DNA from: a virus
Reading direction: 5' to 3' (one strand)
Length of the DNA stretch: 64,000 nucleotides
Virus record (IMG/VR): IMGVR_UViG_3300037475_000032
Coordinates: 1 to 64,000 of that record
The notes under the pieces were generated by a model. It did no database searches and was not told where the DNA came from. It worked only from the letters and a program-made list of their open reading frames with translations. Of this stretch, positions 7,323 through 58,971 are shown in pieces. A program made the translations under genes and the position numbers. The first letter of the stretch is position 1; every line of letters begins with the position of its first letter.

Positions 7323-7332
7323 GTAACTAGCG
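7323..7332 (+). promoter_or_regulatory. Start-associated element, divergent copy
   Basis: GTAACTAGCG directly abuts the ATG at 7333. It keeps STAA and the final G but matches the STAATARGTGA consensus poorly; it is listed because of its position before the first gene of the rightward virion block. Confidence 0.3.
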
Positions 7333-7668
7333 ATGGCGCACTTCACGTCCTACAACACCTCCGACAAAAGCACCGGCAATCTTCCCCTCCAGGCGTCGGA
7401 ATCGAAGACGTTTGGTCCCATGCAGACCGACCGTGCTCAGAACATCGCTGGGTCGGTCTTCGCCGATCAGGTTGGTACGTTGAAGGTGCAGCAGTCGTTT
7501 GATGGTGAACACTGGGATATCTCACAGTCCTTCTCGGTCGTCGCCAGCACAGGTCAGGGATTCAACGTCGCCATCATCGCCCCGAATGTCCAGTTGGTCT
7601 ACGAAAACGGTGGAGTCAACCAGACAGTCATGAGGCTCTTTGCTCGCACGTTCGTAACTGGAGCCTAA
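7333..7668 (+). CDS. Virion-block hypothetical protein (111 aa)
   Basis: First gene of the rightward structural block, ending one base before the next ATG. Composition is Ser/Thr/Gln-rich and beta-like, with segments such as VGTLKVQQSFDGEHWD that recall small beta-sandwich or carbohydrate-binding-type structural proteins. No classical ribosome-binding site is visible; the start is preceded by the GTAACTAGCG element. A decoration or fibre-accessory role is possible but unproven. Confidence 0.6.
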   Translation: MAHFTSYNTSDKSTGNLPLQASESKTFGPMQTDRAQNIAGSVFADQVGTLKVQQSFDGEHWDISQSFSVVASTGQGFNVAIIAPNVQLVYENGGVNQTVMRLFARTFVTGA

Positions 7669-8493
7669 ATGGGCGATAACATCCTTGGACCCGGAAACAT
7701 CATCGGGCTTGCGGATGGACCTGCCGATGGCGACCTTCAAGGTAACTATCCAGGACCGACCGTAAAATCCCTCCAGGGAGTCGTCCTCTCCGGCACTCCT
7801 GGAATCGGCTACACCCTAGTCTCTACAGGCTCGTCAGCAGCCAAATGGACTCGTCAGCTACAGGCGGTAGCCCCTGTCTCATCCACGGGCACGCTTGTCG
7901 CCAACGCCCTCAACCCCATCGAAGCGACGGCTGGCCCTATCGTCATGAACCTCCCGACCGGACAGCAGGTCGGTACGCTCTGCGCCATCCAGAAGTACGA
8001 TTCGACTACTCACGTCGTCTCGGTCAGCGGAAGCATCCAGGGATCGTCCCATACTCTCGAACTTCCCTACCAGTTCGACACCTACCTCTTTGTCACCGAT
8101 TCAACCGGATCATGGTGGCCCGCAGCGTCGTACAGGACGCTCGCAGGGCTAGATACGCGCTACGTTGGGACTACTCGCAAGGTCAGCGAAGTCGCCAACT
8201 CCGGGGCGGCCACGACGATCCCAGACACGACCGTTGCCACGGTCACGAACGTCGTCCTGACAGCCAACTGTACCCTCACCTTCCCAGCCATCGCCGTAGG
8301 GAAGCAGTTCACCTTGGTCCTCACTCAGGACTCTACGGGCTCTCGAACGGTCACATGGCCCACCGAAGTCAAGTGGCCTGGAGGCACACCCCCAACTCTC
8401 ACCACAGCCGCAGGTTCGGTCGATTACTTCTCCTTCCTCTGCGTCGATGGCACGCACTGGTTGGGGTCCACAATCGGCCTCAATATGCACTAG
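7669..8493 (+). CDS. Fibre- or decoration-like structural protein (274 aa)
   Basis: Gly/Ser/Thr-rich beta protein. The N-terminus (GPADGDLQGNYPGPTV) resembles collagen-like or fibre-attachment segments of phage fibres. The C-terminal 90 residues contain a pattern I recall from phage fibre ends: TLTFPAIAVGKQFTL, SRTVTWP, VKWPGG and DGTHWLGS. Location next to head genes rather than tail fibres leaves open a head-fibre or decoration role. It starts directly after the upstream stop. Confidence 0.65.
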   Translation: MGDNILGPGNIIGLADGPADGDLQGNYPGPTVKSLQGVVLSGTPGIGYTLVSTGSSAAKWTRQLQAVAPVSSTGTLVANALNPIEATAGPIVMNLPTGQQVGTLCAIQKYDSTTHVVSVSGSIQGSSHTLELPYQFDTYLFVTDSTGSWWPAASYRTLAGLDTRYVGTTRKVSEVANSGAATTIPDTTVATVTNVVLTANCTLTFPAIAVGKQFTLVLTQDSTGSRTVTWPTEVKWPGGTPPTLTTAAGSVDYFSFLCVDGTHWLGSTIGLNMH

Positions 8494-8502
8494 ACCTGAC
8501 GG

Positions 8503-8512
8503 CTAATAGGTG
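8503..8512 (+). promoter_or_regulatory. Start-associated element CTAATAGGTG
   Basis: Abuts ATG 8513, giving CTAATAGGTGATG, the same 13-mer as before the minus-strand gene starting at 23873. It lies 10 nt after the previous stop, in otherwise unconstrained spacer. Confidence 0.55.
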
Positions 8513-11500
8513 ATGAATGTCCAGTGCGAAAACTGTGATGCACACTTCCAGATCAGTCCAGGAGATATGTCGGGGGCGACTGCTTGCCCCGATTGCGGTG
8601 GGACTCGATTTCTTCGAAGTCAACCTTCTCCTACTCGATCAGACGGAACGCTTAGGGACATGGTTGACTCCGATTCTCAGAAGGATCAGGGCGGTAACCC
8701 GCTAGGCGAGGGAACCATCATGGGTAGTGACGGTGAGCGTCCTCCCGGAAAGCGTGACAACTACATGCACTCTAGGGTCGCAGACTTCGATTCCACCGTC
8801 AAGGAGATGGAGAAGTACCACAACGGAGTGAATGGTTATGGTCAGGGTGACTCAAATGTTGCCGATGAGTGGCATGAGGGTGACTTCCGCATCGGGGATC
8901 AGTGGTTCGATGGAGCAGATGGAGACCCAGTTCCCAGCGTCACGTCTGCACTTGTAGCCACATCGGGTGAAATGGAGGACATCCTTGGTCTGAGTCCTCC
9001 AACTCCGCCATCAGGCGGATTCATGGCCTGGAAGCCGGGTATGCACGGCCGAGGACTCATCATCAACGGCGAGCCACACACCTGGAACGCCTACGATCCA
9101 TCCACTGTAGAGCAGACTGGTACAGGCAATAGTCACAGTCAGTACGTGCAGAGTCTTGGCATCAACCCGTCGATGGTTGACTGGCACTCTGGGGTCGAGA
9201 TCAGGCCGACCGGAGAGGTCGAGAATCTTACTGGACGCGACCCTATGCCATATATCAAGGCGGACCCACGACTTAAACCACAAGAGGGCGGCGGTGACCT
9301 GTTCTCAATCCAGCCTACTATGCAACCGACTTCCCGAACACTCGACATGACCCCGTACACGCCTTGGGCTCACCAGGCGGATGTGCAGTTTGATATGGGG
9401 CCGGATGCCAACGTTCCGCAGCACAAAATCACCGTACAGCCGGGGCCACTGGGAATCCACGCAGGTCATACCAAGTATCTCCGTTTCCTCGATGCTCACG
9501 TAAACGGCATCCCGGCTCGTCAGAACGCCGGACAGATCATCTCGCGCTACGGGCTTCACGACAGCCCGGAGTTTGGTCAGCCCGTAGAGATCGGGGTACA
9601 CGACCCAGCCCACATCGCCCCCATTGTGGAGCAGATCCAGTCGAGCCAGGGTGCTATCGCTACTCCGCGCATGAAGGAACTGGGTCACAAGATCCAGTCG
9701 GGTCAGCTTCCGCCGCCCCCAGGCATCGACCCAGCTTCCATCGCCCCGGTTCAGCAGGCCCCGGCACCAGAGCAGCCAGAGGTGCCGGTCACAGCCCGCA
9801 CAGCCGGACCCGCTCTAGCTATTGGTGGTGAGGCGTTGCTAGGAGGCGGCGCTGCCGAGGCAGCCGGTGGAGCAGCCGCAGCCGGTGGAGAGGGAGCAGC
9901 GGGCGGAGGGATGCTTTCAGGTGGCCTTGGTGGTATGGCACCCTCACTCATGAAGGGTGCCCTCTTTAGGCAGGGCGAGAACATGATCGGTGGAGGAGGC
10001 GGAGGTGGATCGGCTCCTGCGGGAGGCGGTGGTGAAGGTGGTAGCTCAGGTCCGCCCGAACTGTCACAGTTGGCCGCCATTCTCGTGTCCGACTACGAGA
10101 CTCCTAGCTCCAACCCAGATGTTGGAACGAAGCACGACGATCCCGAGGACGTTGACCAGAAGGAGTTTAACGACAAGGAGTCCGACCCCAACCCGAAGAA
10201 TCCGAACACGGATGACTCGGGCGCATCGGGTGAGGATGAAGTCCGCGATCATGCAGGATTCGCCCCCGACAGCCCAGGCATCGAACGCCTTGGCCTACTT
10301 CTTCCGTTGGTTCTTCACTACTTCAACTCCGCTGAGTCGGGAGCCGAGGACCCGATGCTCAAGGGTCTTCATGAAGTTCTTGAAGCCGAGAATCCCGGCT
10401 ACCTCGACAACGTAACTCCTGAGGATGAACAAGAGGCAAGAAGGCTAGTCAAGGAACATGGAACACATCAGCATGACAAGCATCAAGGAAAGGTTGCGCT
10501 AGTGCCTCCTATGCAGAACGGATACGTCGATCCGGCCTTCCAGCAACAGCAGGCAGAACAACTGCAAGGTCAGATGCCAGTAGCACAAACGCCGCCAGGT
10601 GGCGCTCAGCAGCAGGGTCATTGCCCTAACTGTGGAGGAGTTTTGACAGCCGATGGAACCTGCCCGCAGTGCGGAGCCAAGCAGAATCCGATGGGAGGCA
10701 GCACGATCCCCGGACAGACTCCCTTGACAGGAGGTCCGTCGATGCCTGCTCAGATCAGTGCTCACTACGACATCCTTGCCGCCCTCGTGGACTCCGCTAA
10801 CCACCAGGGACCCGTTACGCCTGAGCAGATCGCAGCCGTCCAGCAGTTGCTCATCAAGCAGCACCGTGTACACGAGGTTCCGAACGTTCCCCTCAACCCA
10901 GGCGACTACGCCAAGGAGATGTCGGAAATCCAGCAGGTTCCGAACGTCGCTCCACAGGTTCCTCAGGGTGAACAAACCTCACCTCCGGCTCCCGCAATGG
11001 GTGGCGCACCAGGCGGTATGCCGATGCCGGGCATGGGAGGCGAAGCCGGTGGAGCACCGATGCAGCCGATGTCACATACTGCGGCTGATAGCGTCGCTGG
11101 ACGTTGCCCCGTGTGCAACTCCGCTACGACCGGGATGCTCATGGATGAAGGCGGCCATCAGCGTTGCCATTCGTGCGGGAACATCTGGAAGAACGAGGAT
11201 GCCTTTACCGACAAGTCGGTCAACAAGGAAACACGAGTCGCAGCGCCAGCCGAGGCTACGCCGGACCAGACCCAGGACCCCAATCCTACACAGGCCCCTG
11301 CCGCCGAGCAGCATCATCGCCACGACATCGAGAATGACCAGGATTCTTCACTGACCTGGAAGGACACAGAAGGCAATCCGCTCCAGGCAGGCCAGGAATA
11401 CGAGATGCACAACCCCGCTTATGAGATCCCGGATATCATCCGTGTAGATCGAGTCAAGCCGGATGGTCTCGACGTTCACATTCTCGGCACCTTCTCCAAC

Positions 11501-12471: not shown

Positions 12472-12487
12472 GACAGGAAGGAAAGTC

Positions 12488-12796: not shown

Positions 12797-12807
12797 GTAA
12801 TACGTGA
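12797..12807 (+). promoter_or_regulatory. Start-associated element GTAATACGTGA
   Basis: One mismatch to STAATARGTGA; it is followed by one base and the ATG at 12809. No stronger ribosome-binding site is present. Confidence 0.5.
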
Positions 12808-12808
12808 G

Positions 12809-13848: not shown

Positions 13849-13859
13849 GTAAAGAGTGA
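13849..13859 (+). promoter_or_regulatory. Start-associated element GTAAAGAGTGA (protease start)
   Basis: Directly abuts ATG 13860. The identical 11-mer recurs 1,172 nt downstream inside the same gene, before an in-frame ATG. Confidence 0.55.
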
Positions 13860-21045: not shown

Positions 21046-21056
21046 TCACTTCTTAC
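21046..21056 (-). promoter_or_regulatory. Element GTAAGAAGTGA upstream of the lysis-like genes
   Basis: Minus-strand match to STAATARGTGA with one clear mismatch, 18 nt before the ATG at 21027; it would give a short leader containing the GGAGG site if it is a promoter. Confidence 0.4.
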
Positions 21057-22807: not shown

Positions 22808-22828
22808 GTAAAAGGTGAATCGATTCAC
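22808..22828 (+). promoter_or_regulatory. Palindromic operator candidate overlapping a start-type element
   Basis: GTAAAAGGTGA (22808-22818) overlaps the perfect 14-bp palindrome GTGAATCGATTCAC (22815-22828). The pair lies 26 nt before the ATG at 22855, suggesting a regulated promoter for the Ala/Pro-rich gene. Confidence 0.5.
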
Positions 22829-23457: not shown

Positions 23458-23873
23458 ACTACGGCTACAGGCGGAGCACTTGGGAGGGCACCTACGGGTG
23501 CCCTTTCTTGTAGTACTTCCGGGTTCGCTCCCTCACCAGGCGTATAGCTACGGTTTGGGATGATCCAGGACTCGGCCCCGTTGGGTCCTGACTTGACGGC
23601 AGTCGCAGCTTGATGATTGGCGATGTCACCTACATGAGCCGCTAGCTGCTTCACATACGAGTCGGTTTCAGGTGTATCGTCAGCGATGGTGACGACATGA
23701 TGCACTGGCCCGTTTAAACCCTGATGCGGACCCTCTACCCATCCTTCGTGAAAGAGATTGGGGTGAGTGGATCTCAGCCAGCGATGCGATGCTTGCGGCA
23801 GGCGCTCATGTAGGGGTTGTCCCAACTCGTCCGTCGTGGGGATGGGAATACGGTAGAGAGCCTTCTGTGCCAT
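23454..23873 (-). CDS. Hypothetical protein (139 aa)
   Basis: ATG 23873 (a GTG at 23876 is in frame) is preceded by CTAATAGGTG, the element otherwise found before virion genes. The sequence has HERLPQASHRWLRS and several His-rich segments (GPVHHVVTI, GDIANHQAA). The C-terminus is encoded across the terminator hairpin at 23485-23506. The start-element suggests late expression. No family recognised. Confidence 0.6.
   Translation of the reverse strand: MAQKALYRIPIPTTDELGQPLHERLPQASHRWLRSTHPNLFHEGWVEGPHQGLNGPVHHVVTIADDTPETDSYVKQLAAHVGDIANHQAATAVKSGPNGAESWIIPNRSYTPGEGANPEVLQERAPVGALPSAPPVAVV
23485..23506. terminator. Bidirectional hairpin terminator with UACG tetraloop
   Basis: AGGGCACC, TACG, GGTGCCCT then TTTCTTG: an 8-bp stem closed by a UNCG-type loop, 28 nt after the plus-strand stop at 23457. 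It lies within the last codons of the convergent gene. Confidence 0.8.
23712..23719. repeat. GTTTAAAC copy 4
   Basis: Flanked by CCC and CCT, inside the 23454-23873 gene. Confidence 0.6.
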
Positions 23874-23883
23874 CACCTATTAG
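23874..23883 (-). promoter_or_regulatory. Start-associated element CTAATAGGTG (minus strand)
   Basis: Abuts ATG 23873, reproducing CTAATAGGTGATG exactly as at 8503 on the other strand. Confidence 0.55.
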
Positions 23884-28423: not shown

Positions 28424-28434
28424 GTAATCAGTAG
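28424..28434 (+). promoter_or_regulatory. Start-associated element GTAATCAGTAG
   Basis: Precedes ATG 28437 by 2 nt; matches STAATARGTGA at 9 of 11 positions. Shares the gap with the divergent HNH promoter. Confidence 0.45.
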
Positions 28435-31353: not shown

Positions 31354-31364
31354 GTAATCAACGA
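31354..31364 (+). promoter_or_regulatory. Start-associated element GTAATCAACGA
   Basis: Lies 2 nt before ATG 31367 of the sheath gene, 28 nt after the previous stop; it diverges from STAATARGTGA in the second half. Confidence 0.45.
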
Positions 31365-31366: not shown

Positions 31367-32893
31367 ATGTCCCAGTACACTCCGCCAGGCGTCAACGTTA
31401 GAGAGATTGTCTCTCCGCAAGTAGCGCCCTTGCTCGCTTCTCCGGCCAACGTGTGTCTTGTTGGTCTTTCACAGGGCTACCAGATTCGCACGGATCAGGT
31501 ACTTCTTACTGGCACTTCACCCATCCAGCTTCCGTATCTGGCAAGTCTACCAGGTTCGACGCTCGTCTCCGTACTTTCGGTGAAGGATGCCCTCAATCCC
31601 TCCAAGGGAGCCGCCAACGGGTCAGGTTACGTCGTCTCAACCGACTACACCGTCAACCTCAGCGCAGGCACCATTACGAGGCAGGGAAGCGGAGGCATCG
31701 AAAACCCGACTCTCGTCAACGTCACGTACGAGTATGTTCCGGCCAACTACTTCGAACCGATCCGTCTCTTTGACCAAGGATCAGTCGAAAGCCGCTTTGG
31801 CCCGAGCTTCAACCCCGAAGGAAATGGCATCAACTCGCATCTCTCGTACGCCGCCAACCTAGCCTTCCAGAACGGTGCGGGCTCACTCATCCTCCAGCCC
31901 CTATTCACACGCGCTACGCCCGGTAACCCAACGACTGCGGCCAGCCAGCCGAACGCCACACAGGCCGCTGCCGCTGTCACTTGGGCCGACACTCTCTACA
32001 TCTTGCGTAGCATCGAAGAACTGGACATCCTCGTCCCGGTCGTGGGTCAGTCACAGGAAGATGTTACGGACGCTGCTCAGCTAGCCATCTTCCAGACCGT
32101 CCAGGACCACGAGGCTTTCATGAACGGTCAGCAGCAGTACATCGTCGGTATTCTTGGCGAGGACTCGTCTGCATCTGACACCGTTGCTTCGATGTCCACG
32201 ATTCGCTCGCACGCTGTTACGCTCCAGAGCCGCTACGGCGGAGAACTGAACCAGCAGAACGTACTCGTCAACACGTCTGCCTTCGGTGTCCCGCTCCCGA
32301 GCGTCAACACCACTCTTGCCGTTGGTGGTCAGTACATGGCAGCCGCTATTGCTGGTGCTGTTGCTGCCCGTCCGCCGAGCGCAGGACTTACCAAGAAGGC
32401 CATCGCTGGATTCTCAGCCGTTCTCGACACTCGCTTGCTCAGTGACAAGAACATCGATGCTGAAACTGGCCTCATGGTCATTGAACAGAAGAAGACCAAC
32501 GTCCTCTGCCGCCAGCAGTTGACGCTCGACACGACCAGCACCGCCCGCAAGGAACTTTCGGTGGTTCGTGCCAAGTTCATCATGATCGAAAGCATCCGCG
32601 AGACCCTTGAAAACGAGGTCATCGGTCAGATCATCGCAGATGCCAACTCCCCGTACGTTGTCCGCTCGGCCATCAACGCCGTTCTGTCTGCTCTCCAGCA
32701 GGCCGGAGACATCGTTAGCTACTCGCAGGTTCAGGCTTCACTCTCAAGCCTCGAACCGACCACGATCTCAGCTAGCTTCTCCTACAGGCCATCATTCCCG
32801 GTCAACTACGTCACCGTATCCTTCTCCCTCGATCTCTCGACGCAGACGGTTACAGCATCGAGTGAAACAACAAACACGGAATCTACACTGTAA
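31367..32893 (+). CDS. Tail sheath protein
   Basis: 508 residues. N-terminal MSQYTPPGVNVREI is the classic sheath start. A variable beta-rich insert occupies about residues 40-170. The conserved C-terminal half includes PSAGLTKKAIAGF, LTLDTTSTARKELSVVRA and the final beta strands YVTVSFSLDLSTQTV that join subunits. It contracts on injection and surrounds the tube encoded next. The TAA overlaps the start element of the tube gene. Confidence 0.93.
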   Translation: MSQYTPPGVNVREIVSPQVAPLLASPANVCLVGLSQGYQIRTDQVLLTGTSPIQLPYLASLPGSTLVSVLSVKDALNPSKGAANGSGYVVSTDYTVNLSAGTITRQGSGGIENPTLVNVTYEYVPANYFEPIRLFDQGSVESRFGPSFNPEGNGINSHLSYAANLAFQNGAGSLILQPLFTRATPGNPTTAASQPNATQAAAAVTWADTLYILRSIEELDILVPVVGQSQEDVTDAAQLAIFQTVQDHEAFMNGQQQYIVGILGEDSSASDTVASMSTIRSHAVTLQSRYGGELNQQNVLVNTSAFGVPLPSVNTTLAVGGQYMAAAIAGAVAARPPSAGLTKKAIAGFSAVLDTRLLSDKNIDAETGLMVIEQKKTNVLCRQQLTLDTTSTARKELSVVRAKFIMIESIRETLENEVIGQIIADANSPYVVRSAINAVLSALQQAGDIVSYSQVQASLSSLEPTTISASFSYRPSFPVNYVTVSFSLDLSTQTVTASSETTNTESTL

Positions 32894-32899
32894 TAGACA
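32890..32899 (+). promoter_or_regulatory. Start-associated element GTAATAGACA
   Basis: Overlaps the sheath stop codon and directly abuts ATG 32900 of the tube gene. Confidence 0.4.
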
Positions 32900-33547
32900 A
32901 TGGGTGCTGCTTTCAGAAATAGAGTCCGCGTTGGTGGTATCTTCACCATCTTCACCTTCGGTGGACAGCCGATCACGTTCTGCCAGCAGGTGGCGCATCA
33001 GTCACCGCAGCCTGTGGGCCAAGGAGCATCGGCTATTCACCCCATGGACGAGCCATACCCGGTGGAGATCATCACTCCTGCCGCTGCCGGTATGGGTCAG
33101 CTTACCCTCAACCTCTACGAGCTATTCGGCTCCGGTGGCTCGTCATCCAAGGTCTGGGACCGCCTGGGTGCTTCATTCGGTGGATCTACGTCCGCCTCCA
33201 GCCCCTTCGGCTCGACTACGGAAACCAACACTTCAACCAACATCACGCTTGGTGGAGACGGCGTATTCCAGAACGCCACGGACATCGTTGACATCTTCGT
33301 CCGTCAGGCTCAGGCTAACCCGAGCCAGTTGAACATCGTCAAGTACATCCGCCCGCTCTCAGCAGGCGGCTCGCCACTGCCATATACGGAAGAGTACAAC
33401 GGCTGCATCATCACCAACGTAGTTGATGGTGAGCAGATCGAAGTAGGCACGCTTGAGGTAATCAAGCAAGTCACAGTCGCATACAGGTATGTAACACGTA
33501 ACGGCCAGCCAAACCCGGCCTTCGCCGTTCGTGACAACCCGATCTAG
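32900..33547 (+). CDS. Tail tube protein
   Basis: 215 residues placed directly after the sheath gene, the usual order. Beta-rich with VRVGGIFTIFTFGGQP and YPVEIITPAAAGMGQLTLNLYELFGSG, typical of tube monomers that stack into the hollow channel. A Ser/Gly/Thr-rich loop (about residues 85-120) may face the sheath. Identification rests on order, size and pattern. Confidence 0.8.
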   Translation: MGAAFRNRVRVGGIFTIFTFGGQPITFCQQVAHQSPQPVGQGASAIHPMDEPYPVEIITPAAAGMGQLTLNLYELFGSGGSSSKVWDRLGASFGGSTSASSPFGSTTETNTSTNITLGGDGVFQNATDIVDIFVRQAQANPSQLNIVKYIRPLSAGGSPLPYTEEYNGCIITNVVDGEQIEVGTLEVIKQVTVAYRYVTRNGQPNPAFAVRDNPI

Positions 33548-34805: not shown

Positions 34806-34816
34806 CTAATAGACGA
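34806..34816 (+). promoter_or_regulatory. Start-associated element CTAATAGACGA
   Basis: Lies 2 nt before ATG 34819 of the tape measure gene, divergent from the membrane-protein promoter; the second half also resembles a weak ribosome-binding site (ACGAGG). Confidence 0.45.
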
Positions 34817-37902: not shown

Positions 37903-37913
37903 GTAATCAGTGA
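37903..37913 (+). promoter_or_regulatory. Start-associated element GTAATCAGTGA
   Basis: Directly abuts ATG 37914; one mismatch to STAATARGTGA. Confidence 0.55.
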
Positions 37914-41515: not shown

Positions 41516-42430
41516 ATGGGATTCGATCTAAACGAAGTCGAAAAGTACGGATGCAAGATCATCACGGTCGAACCGGCTCAGCGCCGAGTCGAGGGTGTCA
41601 TCAAGTCGGGTGCCGTTGTGCAGGTAGCCGTCTACACAGTCGATCCGTTCTTCCGCTGGCCCAAGGTCGGGGAGAACTGGATGATCCGTCGAGAGAACGG
41701 CACATGGTTTCTTGACAGCAAGTGGCAGAACCAGGAAGGTGAATCGGAAGCCAACCCGACGATCATCAACAACCTCAACGAAGGCGACGCTCTCATTGAC
41801 ACTCCCACAGGGAATGTCTACCTCACGTCGGGCAATCTCTTGGCTTCTGAGCCTTGGACTACGACCAAGATCGAAGAAATGATCTCGGCTGCGAAACCGC
41901 AGCTTGTATCCGTCCTTCCCACACCTAAAGATGGTCTTGAGGTTTACTTCCAGAACTCCATCATGGCGACTGCGGGCGTCATCTGGCATTTGCGCTACAG
42001 AGAAGCCTCTGCGCGTGCTCACAAGTGGGAGTATCTTGGCGGAGCTAACCTCAACTTCGGTCAGTCGGGGATCGTCCACAACACGGTTTCTGGAGAATGG
42101 AAGCGTCCGGGCTCTGGCGAAATCACTCCGCCTCTTGCAGGAGAATATGAAGTCATTCAAGAGGGTTGGTTCCTTGGTAACACGGCCGGAGGGACGAACT
42201 TTGCCATGACTATGGCAAAGGTATCGGCGCTCAATACCCCGTTGACCAGCGTTGTACTAGAGGTGACTGATACCGCTGGTGGTGGATCGCAGTATAACAC
42301 GCTCACTCAGCACGCTTACGCCACATTGCCCGCAGAACCCGTTACGGGAATCACGACCCTTTCGGCAACCACATACGAATACACGGTCGAGTCTCTACAG
42401 AACTTCCTCATACCGCGATGCGTGGGGTAA
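41516..42430 (+). CDS. Baseplate spike-type protein (304 aa)
   Basis: The first about 75 residues look like a small OB-type fold (GCKIITVEPAQRRVEGVIKSG, RWPKVGENWMIRRENGTWFL), as in central spike or gp5-like proteins. The rest is a beta-rich region with a fibre-like C-terminus. It starts 3 nt after the hub stop and precedes the gp25-like gene, the place of the spike in many myoviruses. Spike identity is inference. Confidence 0.6.
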   Translation: MGFDLNEVEKYGCKIITVEPAQRRVEGVIKSGAVVQVAVYTVDPFFRWPKVGENWMIRRENGTWFLDSKWQNQEGESEANPTIINNLNEGDALIDTPTGNVYLTSGNLLASEPWTTTKIEEMISAAKPQLVSVLPTPKDGLEVYFQNSIMATAGVIWHLRYREASARAHKWEYLGGANLNFGQSGIVHNTVSGEWKRPGSGEITPPLAGEYEVIQEGWFLGNTAGGTNFAMTMAKVSALNTPLTSVVLEVTDTAGGGSQYNTLTQHAYATLPAEPVTGITTLSATTYEYTVESLQNFLIPRCVG

Positions 42431-42436
42431 TAGGTG
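42427..42436 (+). promoter_or_regulatory. Start-associated element GTAATAGGTG
   Basis: Abuts ATG 42437 and overlaps the previous stop TAA (42428-42430), leaving only 6 nt between the two genes. Confidence 0.5.
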
Positions 42437-42916
42437 ATGAGCTTTAGCCTTTTGATCGAACACGGGGACTTGCCGCTCAACGGCACCTCTTTGGCAACCG
42501 TCGAAGGAGCGCACAAGCTCACCCAAGACCTGATGTGCGGGATCATGACCCCGATGGGGACTGACGAAGCCCATCCCGACTTCGGATCGCTCCTAGAAGG
42601 TGGCTTCACGGACGATGGACGCTACGTGGAGGGAGTCATCGGAAGTGAGGACTGGAACCGTGTGGCCCTCGTGGTGCAGTCTGAAATCCAGCGCATCTGC
42701 AATGAATACCAGCTACAGCAGATCTCTCGCAACCGCAATGACGCCGCAGTCTACGGAAAGACGACCCTGACGCCCTCCGAGATGCTTGTCGCCGTGGATG
42801 GGATTCAGCTACAGCAGGCGGAAGACAATCTACTCGTGACAGTGACCCTCAAGACCGGGAATGGACCGATCCAGGTTAACGTTCCAGTCGCAAGCGGGAC
42901 CGTAATCGGTACTTAG
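42437..42916 (+). CDS. Baseplate wedge protein, gp25/lysozyme-like
   Basis: 159 residues from ATG 42437 (GTG 42434 also in frame). LTQDLMCGIMTPMGTDEAHPDFGSLL matches the gp25-like core, with DFGS and the following helix-strand-helix order. It is a structural wedge component of contractile baseplates. Directly upstream of the J-like gene, the standard order. Confidence 0.85.
   Translation: MSFSLLIEHGDLPLNGTSLATVEGAHKLTQDLMCGIMTPMGTDEAHPDFGSLLEGGFTDDGRYVEGVIGSEDWNRVALVVQSEIQRICNEYQLQQISRNRNDAAVYGKTTLTPSEMLVAVDGIQLQQAEDNLLVTVTLKTGNGPIQVNVPVASGTVIGT
42902..42911 (+). promoter_or_regulatory. Element GTAATCGGTA at the 3' end of the gp25-like gene
   Basis: Encodes the last residues of the gp25-like protein; ATG 42918 follows after 6 nt. 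Could be a coincidental match. Confidence 0.25.
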
Positions 42917-47584: not shown

Positions 47585-47594
47585 CTAATAAGTG
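47585..47594 (+). promoter_or_regulatory. Start-associated element CTAATAAGTG
   Basis: Abuts ATG 47595, 10 nt after the previous stop; full match to STAATARGTG. Confidence 0.6.
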
Positions 47595-48434
47595 ATGCCC
47601 CTATCGATCTGCCAGAACTACAGCGGAGTCGTGATCGACCAGAATCACGCCCCTGCCTCTAGCACCGATTACCTCACCATCGGAAGCGCTTGGTGGTATC
47701 AGTCGTTCCGTCTGCCCGCCAACTACCGCTACGGCACCGAACCGGACGAATACCGCTACCCCGAACTCTCAGGCTTCCAGTTGTTCTGCGGGATCGATGA
47801 AGGCTTCGCATCCAGCGTCGAACTCAACTACACCTTCGACTACTACATCTTTGGCTCGGGTTGGAGCAACCTCGAAAAGGGCACGATCCAGGGCGCTCAT
47901 GCCTCCGGCCCGCAGGTCTGGATGGATGTCTTCTTCACCAACCCCGTCGAAATCACGAACACGATTGCCGGATCGCTCATTCGCTTCGGCTTCCAGTGCC
48001 CCAACCCCTCCGGTAAGGCAGTCGAGCGTGTCTGGTACTCCCAGCCAAACCCTCTCCCCACAGGTCAGGCGGCCCTTAGTCAGGACAGCTTCACTGAGCT
48101 TGAATCACCCCAGCACAACCACTACTCCTTCTGCTTCCGCACCCTTGGCCTCAGCGCCGACAGCGGGACGGACTTCCTCGGCAATCCCTACCGTTCCGTG
48201 GTCGTCCAGTCCACGGCCAACAACACCTCCACCACCAACGGGGTTAACTCCGGGTACTGGCTCTCCAGCCCTCAGCCGTCGCAGTTCGCCGTCGTCAGCA
48301 ACTACTTCGACGTGCGCCCTATTCCAGAGACCACCTACGGGCTCGTGAACGAGATCTTGAACCCCAGCTTCGAGTACGACAAGTTGGATACGAAGACGCC
48401 GTTCGGTTGGCACACGTTCGAAGGGGGGGTATAG
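47595..48434 (+). CDS. Tail fibre-region beta-rich protein (279 aa)
   Basis: ATG 47595 (a GTG 3 nt earlier is in frame). Asn/Ser/Thr- and Tyr-rich with many beta strands (NYRYGTEPDEYRYPEL, YYIFGSGWSNLEKGT). It ends in a conserved-looking helix-like segment (PSFEYDKLDTKTPFGWHTF) that is typical of tail fibre starts. Part of the four-gene adhesin run 45556-53766. No direct family. Confidence 0.6.
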   Translation: MPLSICQNYSGVVIDQNHAPASSTDYLTIGSAWWYQSFRLPANYRYGTEPDEYRYPELSGFQLFCGIDEGFASSVELNYTFDYYIFGSGWSNLEKGTIQGAHASGPQVWMDVFFTNPVEITNTIAGSLIRFGFQCPNPSGKAVERVWYSQPNPLPTGQAALSQDSFTELESPQHNHYSFCFRTLGLSADSGTDFLGNPYRSVVVQSTANNTSTTNGVNSGYWLSSPQPSQFAVVSNYFDVRPIPETTYGLVNEILNPSFEYDKLDTKTPFGWHTFEGGV

Positions 48435-48437: not shown

Positions 48438-50927
48438 ATGCTCCCTAGCTCCGTTGTTCTACTCGACACGCTCGAACATGCCGAAATCAACTGGTTCGAA
48501 ACCGGGAACTGGTCGAAGATGGGATGGGCCGCAGATGCTATCGCTGCATCTGGAGAAGGCGCAACCATTACATCGGAATCTGCGACTGGCACGATCTTTG
48601 GTTCCTATTGGTCACATCAGGAATTCAACCACAGACAATTCGTGGAGTTTCAACAGGAATCGACCATCCACGAGCCATTCAGAATCGGTCCTCTGGGTAA
48701 AAACAAAGGCCAAGAAGAAATCACCGTGGGTGCGTTTGCTCTGTGGCTCTGTTACAACAACTCGACCCATTCGGGATATCGCTTCTACTTCAATAAGGAA
48801 GCGACCGTAGAAGAAGCTGACCCAACGTGGCAAGTGATGATTCGCAAGGTGACAAGCGGGTCGGAATCAACGTTGGCCGAAGTCAAAACAGTCGCTCTCC
48901 ATTCCGGCGAAAAGTACGCTGGTCAGCTAGAAGGCAAAGTACTTACGATCTGGAGAAAGAAGCCGTCTGAATTCGTCTTCAATGAAATCACTGAAAAAGG
49001 AGAAGAAATCCCCTTCCCATGGGAAGAACTTCTCAAAGTTACTGACAGTGGCTCGGCCTTCACATCGGGATTTGTAGGCTTCGATATCGAACGCCGCACA
49101 CAGCGCGGCAAAGCAGTTGCGCCTCATTTCACCACATTCAGCAACTCCTCATTCGAAGAATATGTTAGATCGGGTGCCGACGCTTCGGTCTCGACCGATG
49201 TATCCACGCGCATCATCACGAGGGGTCGCACCACTGCGGATTCGGCCGTAGAGACAGACGTGGGGAAGAAGGAAAGTCACGTCTCCAAGACCACAAGGGG
49301 AGACGCATCGGCGCTAGAAGACTTCTCTACCTTCTCCATGAAAGGCCATCAGTTCCTCTTGGAGTTTGCAAGAACTACGGACTCTGCTTCCAAGCTCGTA
49401 GCGCTTCCTCGCACCACTGCGGATTCGGCCGTTGTCGTAGATACGCTCGTAAGCTCCTTCTCGGCTCCGCCCATGAGGGTCGAAAACACATGGGCCGCTG
49501 GGGAAGGCAAGCAGTCACTTCGTTCAGTCTTCCACCTCGAACCCGGCAGACGTTTCGGTGTCGAGACGGCCACAGGCACAGGAGGTATGGGAGTCAAGGC
49601 CCAGAAGACCTACACGCTCTCAGCGGACTTCAATGTCAACCAGATCGAACCAGAAATGACGCTTGGCGTCGCTATCGCCTGGTTCACTGAAACCGGCACC
49701 TTCATGAGCCTTGCAGAAGGCAACCAGATCACATCGTCAGGACTTCATACCTCGACGGTCAGTGCAGAAGCACCCATCGGTGCCGCTTTTGCCTGCGCCC
49801 AGCTTGCTGTCACCAATCATGCTTCGATCAAACAGACCATCGATTTCTACTCCGACGACATCATTTTCACTGCTTCACCCACTCCGGTTCCTTACTTCGA
49901 TGGTGACACCATCGGTGTCAAGTGGGAGGGCCAGTTCGGGCAGTCTGGATCTGTACAGGTCGAAGATGGTGGGCCAGGTGAAAACACCGTGGTCATCGAT
50001 AGCGTCTTGCTCGATCCTCTCACTCCGAACATCGCCTTCTCCGTCTACTACTCCACTGAGGGCACCGCCGAAGAAGAAACCACGGAGACTGAATGGGAGA
50101 GGAAGCTCTGGACTCGCGTCCCCAAGACCTTCATCGCCAATCAGCGTCAGACCTACGTGTTCCCCGAACCGATCACGGCGAAGTTCGTCAAGATCGAGTA
50201 CAGCTTCTTGCAGGCCCAGAGTTACAACCCTGGACAGAATCAGCTACCGACGACGTACAAGAAGTTCCCCAAGTGGGTCGCAGACTTCTTCATCGCCCAG
50301 ATGGAGGAACCACAGTTCATCGCCAACACCGTGGGAGTCAAGTACGACGCTCTCGATTTCGCCTACAACTACTTCCTCGATGATCTCGGTCAGTTCCCCG
50401 CATCGCCGGTCCCGGCTCCAAGCTCAGAGACCTCGACGCTCACGCAGTTCTTCAACACCGAACTCGAAACTAACAAGGTAGACCCTGAAACGCTGGCGAA
50501 GATCAACCTCGTGATGCAGACGTACACGCAGCCTCCTGGAGCACAGGCATCCTCCAGCACCCTGCTTGGCAGCAAGGTGCGTCAGATCGCTCTCTCGACA
50601 GTCAACTACCCGGTCGAGAAAGAAGCCGTCACGCCCGCTGAAAACCTATCTGCGGTATCGACCCTCAGGCGAGACAACATCGTCTTTGAGCAGGGCCTAC
50701 CGATCATGTACTTCTTCCTCACCTGCCGTCACTACTACAAGGAACTGACCGCAATCTTCGAGCACAACCGAGCCTACTTTGCCGGGGTCAAGGAGATCGC
50801 GTTCATACGTGACAACTACACCACAACATATGACGGCGAACTTTACATCGAGACAGGTGGAGACGACACGAACACGGAACGCAACGACTTCGTAGTTGAA
50901 CCTGAAACAGGATGGTTCACGTACTAA
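48438..50927 (+). CDS. Tail fibre-region protein with internal repeats (829 aa)
   Basis: Residues 1-230 form a lectin/concanavalin-like beta domain (GAFALWLCYNNSTHSGYRFYF pattern). Residues 245-345 contain degenerate tandem repeats with RTTADSAV in two exact copies. Residues 350-480 look like a second carbohydrate-binding-type sandwich, and the C-terminal 300 residues are helical and charged. AT content and Glu/Lys are higher in the first third than in adjacent genes, which may mark recent transfer. Receptor binding inferred from position. Confidence 0.65.
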   Translation: MLPSSVVLLDTLEHAEINWFETGNWSKMGWAADAIAASGEGATITSESATGTIFGSYWSHQEFNHRQFVEFQQESTIHEPFRIGPLGKNKGQEEITVGAFALWLCYNNSTHSGYRFYFNKEATVEEADPTWQVMIRKVTSGSESTLAEVKTVALHSGEKYAGQLEGKVLTIWRKKPSEFVFNEITEKGEEIPFPWEELLKVTDSGSAFTSGFVGFDIERRTQRGKAVAPHFTTFSNSSFEEYVRSGADASVSTDVSTRIITRGRTTADSAVETDVGKKESHVSKTTRGDASALEDFSTFSMKGHQFLLEFARTTDSASKLVALPRTTADSAVVVDTLVSSFSAPPMRVENTWAAGEGKQSLRSVFHLEPGRRFGVETATGTGGMGVKAQKTYTLSADFNVNQIEPEMTLGVAIAWFTETGTFMSLAEGNQITSSGLHTSTVSAEAPIGAAFACAQLAVTNHASIKQTIDFYSDDIIFTASPTPVPYFDGDTIGVKWEGQFGQSGSVQVEDGGPGENTVVIDSVLLDPLTPNIAFSVYYSTEGTAEEETTETEWERKLWTRVPKTFIANQRQTYVFPEPITAKFVKIEYSFLQAQSYNPGQNQLPTTYKKFPKWVADFFIAQMEEPQFIANTVGVKYDALDFAYNYFLDDLGQFPASPVPAPSSETSTLTQFFNTELETNKVDPETLAKINLVMQTYTQPPGAQASSSTLLGSKVRQIALSTVNYPVEKEAVTPAENLSAVSTLRRDNIVFEQGLPIMYFFLTCRHYYKELTAIFEHNRAYFAGVKEIAFIRDNYTTTYDGELYIETGGDDTNTERNDFVVEPETGWFTY
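49226..49249 (+). repeat. 24-nt direct repeat, copy A
   Basis: Exact 24-bp match to 49409-49432, in the same frame, coding RTTADSAV. Confidence 0.8.
49409..49432 (+). repeat. 24-nt direct repeat, copy B
   Basis: Partner of copy A, 183 nt apart (61 codons), consistent with duplication of a repeat unit in the fibre gene. Confidence 0.8.
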
Positions 50928-53302
50928 TGGCAAACGAACGAGTCAACATCCCGATCTCTGAGGACTTCTTGATCCGCAACATGCACGGCTACGACGTGTA
51001 TGAAGGCTCTGTGCGCGAAATCATGGCGAACCAGAACCACGTTGACATCCGCACGTTTGCCAACGAATCGGGTGAGTCGTGGACCACCGGAACCTTCGGC
51101 TCCAGCAGCGAAACCAACCACTTCCCTCGTCTCAAGCTCAACGTCATCCCAGGCTCGATTGAAAGCGCCTCGGTCACCCCTACCCACACGGTTGATCTTC
51201 TCACGGGCTTCGCGGCTACCGACTTCATCTCGATCTCGCTACCCTCCTTCCCGCTCAGCGTCATCAACACGACCACGAGCTTCATCGACTTCACTTCGCA
51301 CCCAGAAGGCAACTTTACCGAAGGTCCGACGATCTCCGTCCCCTTTAACTCCAGCCTTGCGACACTCACCAACGGCAACTGCGAATTCCGCATCGAGCGA
51401 GCGACTATCGAAAGCAACCCGCTCGTGAACCTTGAAAAGATCACGGCCGTTCGCTTCCGTATCCAGGGAACGGGCAGCGGCACGCTCACGCTCATGGGCT
51501 TCCGTCTCCTCGACTCCGAATGGCAGCAGGGACCCATCGATTACGACAACTGGAATGGTCGCTGGGACAACACGGTGCCTGCAAACGGCAATCCCTCCAA
51601 TCCTCCGGCCTTCGGGCAGCCTATCCTCTGGCGCTCAGATGATCCGAGTGGTGAAAATGACCCACGTCCTATCGATAGCCAGTTCGGGATCATCTTCTAC
51701 ACGGGTGCGCAGGAACACAACAACACCTTCTCCCTATTCCTCCGTGAAGTCTCTGAGGCGTTCTTGACGCAGCTAGACCTCGATGGCACGACGATGAGTG
51801 GCCTAGATGGCAAGCCACAACCCGACCTCGGAGTCAGTGAGTACGCCCCACGTCTCATGTCTGACATGGATCGCTTCGAGATGGAACAGCTTGACACCAT
51901 GGACATGTTCGACATCGAGCGTATCCCCGATCCAGTCTTCACCGGCTGGATTCAGTTCACCTTGCAGTGGGGTATCTCGAACTCCCTGACTGTCACCAAC
52001 TCATCCAACCCCGGATACGTCTTCAACAACGTCCCAAACCTTACCAGCAACACCCACTACCTGCTTGTCTGCACCCTCGAAGGCAACAACGCTCGTGCGC
52101 AGATCTACGAAGTGAACGGCACGACGTTCGCCATCAACCCCAGCGTCGTATTCGACACCACGCTCATCAACGACGACAACCTATTCAAGCGCCGCAAGGG
52201 TCGTGTGGGTTGGCAGGCCACGCTCGGAGACAACAGCGCCTACATCGCCCACATCCGTACACGCCACACCTCATTCGCCGAGTACATCTCGTCGCCGTTG
52301 AGTAGCGTCACGCCGGTCAAGGGAGCCCAGCTATTCGCGGACTACACGCAGAACACGGAGCTATGGGAGGGCTTCAATCCAGCCCCGCAGAACACGAAAA
52401 CCGGATCATCGCTCACACGAGACACGGCCCGCTCGACTTCGGGTGAAAGCTACCGCATCGACAACTACGGAGCCGTCAACCAGGGCTTTGAAACCAACCC
52501 CCTCAACTTCACTGACTTCACACAGTCAGAAATCTCGTTCGACCTCTGGTATCCAAGTGCTCTCATTCAGGAGGCAGAAGCGAAAGGTGAAACACCGGGC
52601 CTTCTCCTCCAGTTGATGGGCCTCTACCAGAACCCGACTTTCAGTCTCATCATGCCGGAGATCATCCCGGACCAGTGGCAGCATGTCAGTGGTATCAATC
52701 TCGCTAACTACGCCCTCAACCAGACGGGTGAATACGCGCTGCTCATCACTCAACCATCAGCCTCGGCGGGTAGCTGGTGGATCGACAAAATGAACGTCTT
52801 TGAGCGAGCCGTGCAGTGGAGCGCTCGATCCGTTGTCAGCAACCCGTGGGAAAGCAACTTCGCACCATGGACGGACTTCCGTGAGTTGGTGAACTCACAG
52901 ACGAGTGGCATCTTGTTCAGCCCTCAGGGCAAGGATCTCCAGATGCGAGGACGAGCCCTGCGCCAGGACGCCAATATCGTCGGGCCTCCCAAGCTCGTAC
53001 CCACATATGCGGAACTAGGACGCCTTGTGTGGCCGGAAAACGCCCTCAAAGGACTCACCCCTCCTACGGCTAACTACCCCAATCCAACGCAGATCGCGGG
53101 TCTCGAATACAGCTTCACAAGTTCGTCTACGCCGGGCACAGGGGGCATCGTGCTCTACGAATGGACCTTCGGGGACGGCGCACGCGCTACGGGTCCTCAT
53201 GCCACGCACACCTACTTGGCCCACGGAACCTACCAGGTAACTTTGACCGTTACTGACCGTAATGGACAGCAGGCCAACCACACCGAACCGTTGGTAATCT
53301 AA
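50927..53302 (+). CDS. Tail fibre-region protein with C-terminal PKD domain (791 aa)
   Basis: ATG at 50927 shares the previous stop (TAATG). Mostly Asn/Thr/Ser-rich beta structure with several lectin-like modules (residues 90-210; 330-450). The last 75 residues form a PKD domain: LYEWTFGDGARATGPHATHTY and TYQVTLTVTDRNG. PKD modules mediate protein or sugar contacts on cell surfaces, suggesting receptor binding. Paired with the next gene, also PKD. Confidence 0.7.
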   Translation: MANERVNIPISEDFLIRNMHGYDVYEGSVREIMANQNHVDIRTFANESGESWTTGTFGSSSETNHFPRLKLNVIPGSIESASVTPTHTVDLLTGFAATDFISISLPSFPLSVINTTTSFIDFTSHPEGNFTEGPTISVPFNSSLATLTNGNCEFRIERATIESNPLVNLEKITAVRFRIQGTGSGTLTLMGFRLLDSEWQQGPIDYDNWNGRWDNTVPANGNPSNPPAFGQPILWRSDDPSGENDPRPIDSQFGIIFYTGAQEHNNTFSLFLREVSEAFLTQLDLDGTTMSGLDGKPQPDLGVSEYAPRLMSDMDRFEMEQLDTMDMFDIERIPDPVFTGWIQFTLQWGISNSLTVTNSSNPGYVFNNVPNLTSNTHYLLVCTLEGNNARAQIYEVNGTTFAINPSVVFDTTLINDDNLFKRRKGRVGWQATLGDNSAYIAHIRTRHTSFAEYISSPLSSVTPVKGAQLFADYTQNTELWEGFNPAPQNTKTGSSLTRDTARSTSGESYRIDNYGAVNQGFETNPLNFTDFTQSEISFDLWYPSALIQEAEAKGETPGLLLQLMGLYQNPTFSLIMPEIIPDQWQHVSGINLANYALNQTGEYALLITQPSASAGSWWIDKMNVFERAVQWSARSVVSNPWESNFAPWTDFRELVNSQTSGILFSPQGKDLQMRGRALRQDANIVGPPKLVPTYAELGRLVWPENALKGLTPPTANYPNPTQIAGLEYSFTSSSTPGTGGIVLYEWTFGDGARATGPHATHTYLAHGTYQVTLTVTDRNGQQANHTEPLVI

Positions 53303-53792: not shown

Positions 53793-53793
53793 A

Positions 53794-57021: not shown

Positions 57022-57391
57022 CGTCCTCAATGACTCCGTGTAGATAGCCCTCTTCCCAAAGCTCGATCCACTCGGGCGGCTGCGGGAACCACTCAGGGGC
57101 GTTACCGTCCCATGCGCCGCTGCGCTGAGCTAGCTCCACACTCACGTAGCCAAGGGCAACAATACCCCTGTCGTGCTCGTCCTTGACCGCCTGACGGAGC
57201 TTGTCGGCCTCTTGCCTTGCTCCAGCGTCACGGCCGGTCTCGATGGCGTTGGCGAACCAGCCAACCAGGAAGTCGAGATCCCACTTCTGATCCTCGCCTA
57301 GCGTTACCACCTTGGCGAATTCCTGAGCCCACACCGTAGCATCGGTGTTGCCCTCTAGTCTGACTGATATTCCCTGATGCTCTGCTGACAT
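57011..57391 (-). CDS. Hypothetical protein (126 aa)
   Basis: AAAGG precedes the ATG after 8 nt. Alpha-helical, acidic, with DLDFLVGWFANAIETGRDAG and a Trp-rich C-terminus (EWFPQPPEWIELWEEGYLHG). Similar short proteins are common in actinophages without known function. Upstream lies a conserved-looking hairpin and a weak start-type element. Confidence 0.6.
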   Translation of the reverse strand: MSAEHQGISVRLEGNTDATVWAQEFAKVVTLGEDQKWDLDFLVGWFANAIETGRDAGARQEADKLRQAVKDEHDRGIVALGYVSVELAQRSGAWDGNAPEWFPQPPEWIELWEEGYLHGVIEDDDE

Positions 57392-57418
57392 TCGTCTGTC
57401 CTTTCGTGCGTCACTTAT

Positions 57419-57453
57419 GACGCCTTAACCCCGATTTGGGGCCATAAAGCGTC
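57419..57453 (-). promoter_or_regulatory. Stem-loop in a 74-nt gap
   Basis: GACGC...GCGTC closed outside and CCCC/GGGG inside, separated by a partly pairable CTTAA/CCATAAA bulge, loop GATTT. A GTCATAAGTGA match (57411-57421) borders it. It may be a processing site or leader control of the 57011-57391 gene. Confidence 0.4.
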
Positions 57454-57465
57454 AAAACTGGTGCC

Positions 57466-58017
57466 TTAGCGGTAGAAGCTGGCCCCGTTCTTGACCCTCT
57501 GTCCCTTGGTGTTCACCTTGCGTCCATCCGGGTGCGTGCGGTTGTACATGCCGGTTGTGGGTCGGCCGAAGCGGTCGTTCGTGAACGCTGGATCGGGAGT
57601 CCCGGCTTCCACATAGATCTCACGACGCTGGCGATTGTAGAGGTGGCTCTGGAATAGGATCGGGTTAACCCCTCGGATGTCACGGCGGGGTCCCTCTCCC
57701 TTGTACCAGCGATGGCCCTTCTCACACCTTAGCTCCGGGAAGTCGAGGTAGAGTTGATTCTCTTCCTCATCCAGAAGCGGATTGCCGTCGTTGTCGAACT
57801 GAGCCACGGACTCAACATGCCCGGTCTCGTCCCCATAGGGAAGGCTGTCAGGATCGTTTTCCTTGCACTCACGGCATAGCTCTCGATTGGCGTCTGACCT
57901 CAAAAGCTGATCGGCAAACTCCTCCAACTCAAGCGCAGTGTATTTCTGGCCTGGGACGAACTCGGGGGCTTCGTCCTCGAATCCCTCATCGGGAATGTCC
58001 TCATCCTCAAGACTCAT
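57466..58017 (-). CDS. Hypothetical protein with zinc-type Cys cluster (183 aa)
   Basis: Acidic N-terminus, CREC pair near residue 48, later a CEKGH near residue 100 that could form a zinc site, and a C-terminal basic region with NPILFQSHLYNRQRREIYVEAG. Overlaps the sigma-like gene by 11 bp, so probably co-translated. No family recognised. Confidence 0.55.
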   Translation of the reverse strand: MSLEDEDIPDEGFEDEAPEFVPGQKYTALELEEFADQLLRSDANRELCRECKENDPDSLPYGDETGHVESVAQFDNDGNPLLDEEENQLYLDFPELRCEKGHRWYKGEGPRRDIRGVNPILFQSHLYNRQRREIYVEAGTPDPAFTNDRFGRPTTGMYNRTHPDGRKVNTKGQRVKNGASFYR

Positions 58018-58423
58018 CTTCTACCTCGGCGAAGTACCTCTTTGCAAGCTGGATGCAACCAGCCTCGACGTACTGACCAACACTCACGGTGGTAATCCCC
58101 ATGATCTTGGCTACGTCCTTCTGCTTCATGTCCAGGATCACATTGTAGAAAATGGCCTCGCGCTTACGCGGCGCTAGCTCTTTCAGTCCAGTGTGCAAAT
58201 CCCAGAACGAGATTGCGATTGTCTGCTTTGTGCGTTCTCCCTTATCGTTCTCGACCCAGTAGCTATGCTCTAGGACGTGCTTACGACCGTCTGCTCCTGC
58301 CTGCGATAGCCCATAACCACCAACAAGCTCGCGGAACTCCGTGTAGTGCCTAAGTACCTCTCGTAGTATGCGATGTGGAGGGACGATCCCTGATTGTTTG
58401 TTCTTCTTGACAGCGGTTGTCAT
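58007..58423 (-). CDS. Sigma-70 region-4-like protein (138 aa)
   Basis: ATG at 58423 (an in-frame opening to 58453 is discarded because it runs into the promoter). N-terminal 70 residues are helical and basic with a Tyr/Trp-rich turn. Residues 82-130 form a helix-turn-helix: LKELAPRKREAIFYNVILD, MKQKDVAKIMGITTVSVGQYVEAG, as in region 4 of sigma factors and in late-gene activators. Region 2 is not evident, so it may partner the host sigma or be a divergent small sigma. It could direct transcription of the virion genes (inference). Confidence 0.7.
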   Translation of the reverse strand: MTTAVKKNKQSGIVPPHRILREVLRHYTEFRELVGGYGLSQAGADGRKHVLEHSYWVENDKGERTKQTIAISFWDLHTGLKELAPRKREAIFYNVILDMKQKDVAKIMGITTVSVGQYVEAGCIQLAKRYFAEVEDES

Positions 58424-58434
58424 ACCTGCTACGC

Positions 58435-58443
58435 AGTATAGCA
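58435..58443 (-). promoter_or_regulatory. Extended -10 promoter for the sigma-like gene
   Basis: TGCTATACT on the minus strand (TG-extended -10, 58435-58443) without a clear -35; 11 nt to ATG 58423 leave a leader of only about 4-5 nt. Confidence 0.55.
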
Positions 58444-58449
58444 CTGCTT

Positions 58450-58962
58450 TCACTTGTTACTGTGACCCAAGTACCAAAGGCCGATTGCGAGGGCGTCGGT
58501 CTCCTCAAAGACCTTGACCCACTCAGATACCCTCGACTTGAGTTGAGGTAACAGCGAGATGACGCCGTTGCGAACTTGCTGCTTCGTGATCTTCTTGCCT
58601 CGTCCTCGAATGGCAATCTCGGATTGCACCGAACGAGCCATTACCTGTGAGACCGGGATGCCCCTCTGGATGGCTATGGCGTGCAGCGTCGTTGCCTGCA
58701 CATTCGCCAAGTAGCCCTGCTCCGGGATATTGAAGCCACGAGAGGGCACAACCTCAGTGACAACATGCTCCGGCCTCCACCAATCAAGAAGCTCCTGGCT
58801 TTCCTGAACCCAGAACCTAGCCAAATCTAGGCGGTACTCTTGAAACCCTACGGTGTCTCCTCGTGGGAAGTGAATCACGCCTGAGGCTAGGTACTTGGGT
58901 CCTGTCTCCAGAACCGCCCACCCCGCTCGCTTTGCTCCTGAGTCGATACTTAGCACCCTCAC
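58450..58962 (-). CDS. RuvC-like Holliday junction resolvase
   Basis: 170 residues from GTG 58962. RuvC signature: VLSIDSGAKRAGWAV (Asp in strand 1), VVTEVVPSRG (Glu), and the late acidic pair FEETDALAIGLW. It resolves branched DNA before packaging. Preceded by GTAATAGGTGT overlapping its start. It forms a set with RecA, the SNF2-like helicase and the two nearby nucleases. Confidence 0.85.
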   Translation of the reverse strand: MRVLSIDSGAKRAGWAVLETGPKYLASGVIHFPRGDTVGFQEYRLDLARFWVQESQELLDWWRPEHVVTEVVPSRGFNIPEQGYLANVQATTLHAIAIQRGIPVSQVMARSVQSEIAIRGRGKKITKQQVRNGVISLLPQLKSRVSEWVKVFEETDALAIGLWYLGHSNK

Positions 58963-58971
58963 ACCTATTAC
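58961..58971 (-). promoter_or_regulatory. Start-associated element GTAATAGGTGT
   Basis: Minus strand; overlaps the GTG start (58962) of the RuvC-like gene, differing from STAATARGTGA in the last base. Confidence 0.4.

Follow-up and report, generated by a model that had tools for sequence, protein, structure and literature searches.

The 64,000-nt window analysed here (bases 1–64000 of a viral record of 160,765 bp) carries a short recurring word at the start codons of genes on both strands. This raises the question of whether the word acts in transcription, as a phage-specific promoter, or in translation, as an initiation signal. The major capsid protein is 50–58% identical to the capsids of Mycobacterium, Gordonia, and Rhodococcus myoviruses. 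The record represents a large uncultured virus whose hosts, judged by this capsid kinship only, are probably soil actinobacteria.

We retrieved 78 IMG/VR loci coding for closer relatives. The genome set consisted of this record (G000) and 12 uncultured relatives (G001–G010, G013, and G014), whole or nearly so as the contigs allow, and the cultured phages Finch, Pupper, Myrna, Alice, and Phrappuccino were compared with it. G011 and G012 were used for protein searches only; thus, the search for the sigma region-4 protein described below spans 15 uncultured genomes (G000–G014). Genes were called with a simple in-house codon-usage caller, and start positions are therefore approximate.

STAATMRGTGA occurred exactly nine times in 160,765 bp, with seven of the nine at starts, and was absent from 10 order-2 Markov sequences. 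When one mismatch was allowed, 27 copies were seen against 6.6 expected. When the 60-nt stretches preceding 196 called starts were searched by de novo EM, SGTAATAGGTG emerged as the second motif, behind a weak purine-rich, Shine-Dalgarno (SD)-like motif; EM on regions including the start codon recovered ATG only. Positional k-mer counts gave eight TAATA at −9 against 0.02 expected. From 59 sites of G001–G003 we built a 21-column matrix and scored G000 with it. The training sites had been chosen by means of a short G000-derived seed matrix, so this test on the unseen G000 is not fully independent. At 13 bits or more, the matrix found 28 matches against 2.4 expected (order-3 Markov). These comprised 23 matches at starts (0.04 expected when footprints are counted), four in leaders 47–68 nt upstream (0.046 expected), and one in coding sequence. 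At 10 bits or more, 52 matches were found against 11.2 expected, so that copies of 10–12 bits are partly chance and individually uncertain, barring support from relatives. The enrichment at starts over random sequence that the initial annotation had predicted was thus seen when the whole genome and related phages were scanned. The recurring element fused to start codons is real, is clade-wide, and stands at dozens of genes.

Every copy named in the initial annotation was recovered in place on its strand (Table 1), save for the interpretation of 16190. This site had been listed as a possible copy at a distance from its start; it scored below 7 bits and is not supported as a copy, and the gene that ends at 16193 uses its TAA as stop codon. 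The copy at 42902, proposed in the same way, passes 10 bits only narrowly and is borderline. The gene at GTG 21049 may have its true start downstream, at 20869, where an SD is present.

Table 1 Start-linked elements and candidate regulatory genes. Coordinates are those of the window except where G000 is given; scores are from the 21-column matrix trained on relatives.
Feature	Position	Strand	Sequence	Context	Counterparts in relatives	Score (bits)
Motif copy	7323..7333	+	GTAACTAGCGA	Before ATG 7333, first gene of + run		15.5
Motif copy	8503..8513	+	CTAATAGGTGA	GTG 8510 / ATG 8513 of 1319-aa ORF	TAAT before ATG (L021, L018); TTAATAAGCGATG (L016)	15.8
Motif copy	12797..12807	+	GTAATACGTGA	Before ATG 12809	GATAACAAGCGATG	14.0
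Motif copy	13849..13859	+	GTAAAGAGTGA	Before ATG 13860, head maturation protease family (phrog_18299)	TAA ~10 nt before ATG in most of ~40 loci	10.7
Possible copy	21046..21056	-	GTAAGAAGTGA	At GTG 21049		12.3
Motif copy	22808..22818	+	GTAAAAGGTGA	47 nt before ATG 22855		15.1
Motif copy	23873..23883	-	CTAATAGGTGA	GTG 23876 / ATG 23873	GTAATAGACGATG (L036, L034)	13.2
Motif copy	28424..28434	+	GTAATCAGTAG	Before ATG 28437, first gene of + run	GTAATAGATGACATG (G001); GGTAATCAGCGACGATG (G008)	12.1
Motif copy	31354..31364	+	GTAATCAACGA	Before ATG 31367, tail sheath (phrog_2839)		15.9
Motif copy	32890..32900	+	GTAATAGACAA	Before ATG 32900; TAA doubles as sheath gene stop	GATAATAGACGATG (G002); GGTAATAGCTAATG (G003); TATAATTAGCGATG (G001)	16.2
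Motif copy	34806..34816	+	CTAATAGACGA	Before ATG 34819, first gene of + run		11.4
Motif copy	37903..37913	+	GTAATCAGTGA	Before ATG 37914	CATAATAAGCGATG (G001)	10.9
Motif copy	42427..42437	+	GTAATAGGTGA	GTG 42434 / ATG 42437, baseplate protein; TAA is previous gene's stop	TAAT or TAA at matching spacing in most	18.7
Weak, borderline copy	42902..42912	+	GTAATCGGTAC	16 nt before ATG 42918		10.1
Motif copy	47585..47595	+	CTAATAAGTGA	GTG 47592 / ATG 47595	CATAATCGGTGATG (G003)	17.9
Motif copy	58961..58971	-	GTAATAGGTGT	Before GTG 58962, RuvC-like (phrog_159, PF02075)	Not kept in relatives compared	18.2
Host-type −10 (TGCTATACT-like)	4077	-		Start-linked		
Host-type −10 (TGCTATACT-like)	19532	-		Start-linked		
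Host-type −10 (TGCTATACT-like)	25713	-		Start-linked		
Host-type −10 (TGCTATACT-like)	28117	-		Start-linked		
Host-type −10 (TGCTATACT-like)	34731	-		Start-linked		
Host-type −10 (TGCTATACT-like)	G000 105570			Start-linked		
Host-type −10 (TGCTATACT-like)	G000 119533			Start-linked		
Host-type extended −10	58435..58443	-	TGCTATACT	Upstream of region-4 gene, read from window		
Sigma-70 region-4 protein (P0001)	58007..58423	-		ATG 58423 preferred over GTG 58453		
Conserved protein (P0002)	57466..58017	-		Overlaps region-4 gene, downstream; C-x2-C and C-x3-H		

The motif was kept at orthologous starts whose proteins are only 30–70% identical and whose surrounding DNA has diverged. Besides the genes with counterparts in Table 1, gene 68516 and others kept it in relatives. 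The control genes (major capsid and the neighbouring gene 16298) instead kept an AAGGA-type SD, and the portal gene 99229, also picked as a control, was found with a similar element. Enrichment at starts reached p ~1e-29 in each of G000–G003, ~1e-8 in G004 and G006, and ~3e-3 to 3e-4 in G005, G007, G008, and G009. It was not significant in G010 (p 0.06), which has a TAAGG-like variant, in G014 (p 0.26), or in G013, where no motif was found. Among the cultured phages, none of Finch, Phrappuccino, Alice, and Pupper showed significant enrichment, and Myrna had four matches (p 8e-4). The element is therefore specific to a phage clade, as had been suggested: most uncultured relatives show the enrichment at starts, and cultured Bxz1-, Pupper-, Finch-, and Phrappuccino-type phages do not.

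To describe the element, 101 start-linked sites of G000–G003 were aligned, and the consensus was W-N-C-K-R-N4-R-TAAT-A-R-G-Y-G-A(TG). T-A-A was conserved at 97–98%, the next T at 82%, G at +9 at 83%, and A at +10 at 85%. The alignment also revealed upstream columns that the initial annotation had missed, namely C 7 nt before GTAAT (75%) and A or T at −9 (~80%). The G of GTAAT peaked at exactly 10 nt before ATG, a peak likewise missed before, with lesser peaks at 11–13; a further peak at 7 arose where GTG was called in place of the following ATG in GTGATG. At most ATGs the distance from TAAT was 5–8 nt, in agreement with the first estimate, and the core TAAT lay at about −9 to −6, with −12/−11 unconserved. 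The predicted lack of a −35 element was also borne out: the 101 sites held no conserved block in the −35 region, apart from a slight preference for A/T at −20 to −16 relative to the G.

Most copies had been assigned to virion genes. The motif was indeed enriched in the virion module, defined by position (12/37 genes), but is not confined there, since 19 of the 161 other genes carried it. SD words were found at 25/95 motif genes against 371/772 others (p 5e-5), which upholds the claim that motif genes are short of a normal SD; G002 was an exception, with an SD-like word in range at 12/22 motif genes. Motif genes were overrepresented at the heads of same-strand runs (24/84 against 83/706 internal genes, p 1.3e-4), and their median upstream gap was 33 nt, compared with 8 nt (p 1.5e-6).

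We infer promoter function, start point, timing, and the role of the region-4 protein from sequence, statistics, conservation, and phyletic pattern. The element is likely a phage-specific, −10-only promoter that gives leaderless or near-leaderless mRNAs. The core R-TAAT would act in a −10-like manner without a −35, together with the upstream half W-N-C-K-R, whose C precedes the T of TAAT by 8 nt, and the downstream half A-R-G-Y-G-A would run into the start codon. A phage factor would redirect host RNA polymerase to the element, and transcription would start 5–8 nt past TAAT, that is, at or a few nucleotides before the ATG (or GTG). The resulting mRNAs would be leaderless or near-leaderless, the kind translated by actinobacterial ribosomes. 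Host-type TGNTANNNT boxes would serve non-virion genes and the region-4 gene.

An alternative raised at the outset is a translation-initiation element: as a complement of the anti-SD region, AGGTGAT would bind the 3′ end of 16S rRNA, and the ribosome would be set at an overlapping or adjacent ATG. The consensus contains AGGTGAT, its spacing to start codons is fixed, and conservation of its right half is much stronger at starts than at other sites: among sites picked on the left half alone, GA was kept in 54% of start, 18% of leader, and 6% of coding sites. However, rRNA offers no complement to TAA(T), which varies least, or to the upstream C/W, and variants that break the pairing (AAG, CAG, and GCG) are common. 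AGGTGA sits on or right next to the ATG, so that pairing would overlap or touch it, unlike the purine-rich anti-SD complement 5–10 nt before the start that defines an SD; other genes in the same genome use ordinary AAGGAG SDs. The enrichment at run heads and the large upstream gaps also fit promoters. A translation-initiation element is thus unlikely, and the promoter reading, already favoured in the initial annotation, fits better, since the upstream extension has no ribosomal meaning.

The leader copies are only a partial argument between a promoter and a translation element, because they are few and the motif's own GTG starts a mini-ORF in most of them; we therefore dropped them as clean proof of a promoter. 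In at least three of the four leader copies (22808, 91877, and 128682), this GTG opens a mini-ORF of 7–16 codons. The mini-ORF of the copy at 22808 has seven codons, and ATG 22855 has GGGAGA. The copy at 91877 lies 68 nt upstream of a gene start with its own SD, and its counterpart in G002 (13.6 bits) lies at 95 nt. At G000 128689-128730 (L011), a 13-codon ORF from the motif's GTG ends adjoining the ATG of gene 128731, and equivalents are present in G002 and G003.

It is very unlikely that the element is an operator, that is, a site for a phage repressor or regulator over the start region with the real promoter elsewhere, as with the start-associated SAS of cluster K mycobacteriophages. The motif does resemble SAS as a non-palindromic repeat near starts (PMC3203893), but no other promoter-like word was conserved upstream of it in the 101 sites, the depletion of SD words would be left unexplained, and the element itself holds a −10-like core at leaderless distance. 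An origin as a by-product of stop-start overlap, with TAA as the upstream gene's stop (as at 42427 and 32890) and the spacing set by translational coupling, is largely refuted and most improbable, because it holds for only 10/101 sites (G000–G003) and because sites also stand at the heads of strand runs, where the strand in question has no gene upstream.

For the preferred reading as a leaderless promoter, a second class of sites provides a calibration. About 20 non-virion genes (20/161, against 0/37 in the virion module) have, at about −12 to −7 from the ATG, a host-type TANNNT hexamer that is often part of TGCTATACT or GGCTATACT. A similar class is present in cultured Myrna (TGCTAGAAT). In M. 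tuberculosis, a TANNNT box lies 7–12 bp upstream of transcription start sites (PMC3898074), and the position of the hexamer here matches; it calibrates leaderless starts in this genome. Leaderless translation in mycobacteria requires no more than a 5′-terminal ATG or GTG (PMC4633059). The phage motif is like the mycobacterial leaderless sigma-A promoters (PMC3898074, PMC4633059) in having a −10 box alone and no SD, with the start site at ATG or GTG; however, its core differs, TAAT at about −9 to −6 in place of TANNNT at −12 to −7, and it is the separate TGCTATACT class that fits the mycobacterial pattern.

We searched the phage for a factor that could redirect RNA polymerase. P0001 matched PF08281 (E 6.6e-7) and a PHROG sigma factor; of the sigma70 families, PF04542 and PF04545 gave no match, and Sigma70_r2 (region 2) had no match in the phage. 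Its AlphaFold model shows a region-4 helix bundle with pLDDT above 90, preceded by a helix pair and a beta-hairpin of lower certainty. Foldseek matched it to structures of sigma region 4, and its match to the Finch sigma factor covered a longer part of the protein. By sequence, P0001 was found in 15/15 uncultured genomes (G000–G014) and, of six cultured phages searched, weakly in Finch, where the match is annotated as a sigma factor; it was absent from Pupper, Myrna, Alice, Phrappuccino, and Phabba. A Tonenili protein matched it by structure, and some cultured cousins may therefore hold distant homologues.

The region-4 protein is the best candidate for the factor that would redirect RNA polymerase to the motif, although somewhat less likely than not to be that factor; the link is a correlation in phyletic pattern. 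Against the link, G010, G013, and G014 encode the protein without a significant excess of the motif, and Finch encodes a sigma factor without the motif. The −10 box is normally read by sigma region 2. Because no region 2 is detectable, a reading of TAAT by the region-4 protein is hard to explain. Upstream of its gene, G002, G003, L196, and G014 have TGNTATAAT or TGCTATAGT at the place equivalent to the host-type box in Table 1, a pattern consistent with expression by host RNA polymerase before the motif genes. A weak motif copy at 58460(-) was considered as a site of autoregulation and dropped, since relatives conserve the TGNTATAAT-like box before the ATG instead. P0002 is a possible partner of the region-4 protein; blastp found it in G001–G006 and not in G007, and its low-confidence structure model was too poor for a fold search. 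Multisubunit RNA polymerase domains (PF00562 and PF04998) were absent from the phage, and the controls worked; a search for T7-like RNA polymerase (PF00940) gave no match in the phage, yet none in the control genomes either. In its fullest form, a protein with region 4 only would steer host RNA polymerase to a −35-less promoter that includes the start codon, and one 20-bp word would fix where transcription and translation each begin in a late regulon of leaderless mRNAs throughout a clade of uncultured actinophages. We consider this whole scheme rather doubtful.

The T4 late promoters (gp55/gp33/gp45) are −10-only, start transcription a few nucleotides downstream, and serve late virion genes. 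The likeness to them drawn in the initial annotation is functional, in the lack of a −35, but does not extend to sequence. T4 has TATAAATA, while the 101-site logo has R-TAAT-A-R-G-Y-G-A at −10; the phage motif RTAAT..GYGA has an upstream C element, and its transcripts are probably leaderless. The search with Sigma70_r2 identified no gp55-like protein. In phiEco32 and 7-11, a phage sigma-family protein uses a short −10-like word (TAATGTATA in phiEco32) for structural genes, and bacterial promoters serve earlier genes (PMC4331800). The present phage may be similar, with its candidate sigma-family factor and a −10-like word at 12/37 virion-module genes, but the word and the bipartite layout differ, the start codon is joined directly to the word, only region 4 is seen in the candidate factor, and the case here is known from sequence. 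SAS lies a few nucleotides from start codons, mostly ATG (PMC3203893), and is, like the motif, an asymmetric repeat close to starts in actinophages; however, its sequence, GGGATAGGAGCCC within 3–7 bp of the start, shares no core with the phage motif, and it occurs in right halves with non-structural genes. A search of the open-access literature for Bxz1 late promoters or sigma factors found nothing relevant.

If the promoter reading is true, the late regulon of an uncultured phage clade becomes readable, a single element unites promoter and start codon, and promoter choice by a sigma region-4 protein that lacks a recognisable region 2 gains a testable case. Gene starts, including several GTG/ATG choices, could then be corrected, and early and late genes could more easily be told apart by sequence alone.

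Several other features were observed. The virion module encodes, at 50912-53302 (+) of the window, a protein with a PKD (Ig-like) domain at its C-terminus. A 1918-aa protein at G000 131410-137166 (L011:7410-13166) matches anti-CBASS Acb1 below threshold (PF23474, E 2.9e-4). ARAGORN made 47 calls within 10 kb at G000 78646-89075 (L008 and L009), consisting of 44 tRNAs with assigned anticodons, two with uncertain anticodons, and one tmRNA, and made 32–38 calls in each of the relatives G001–G003.
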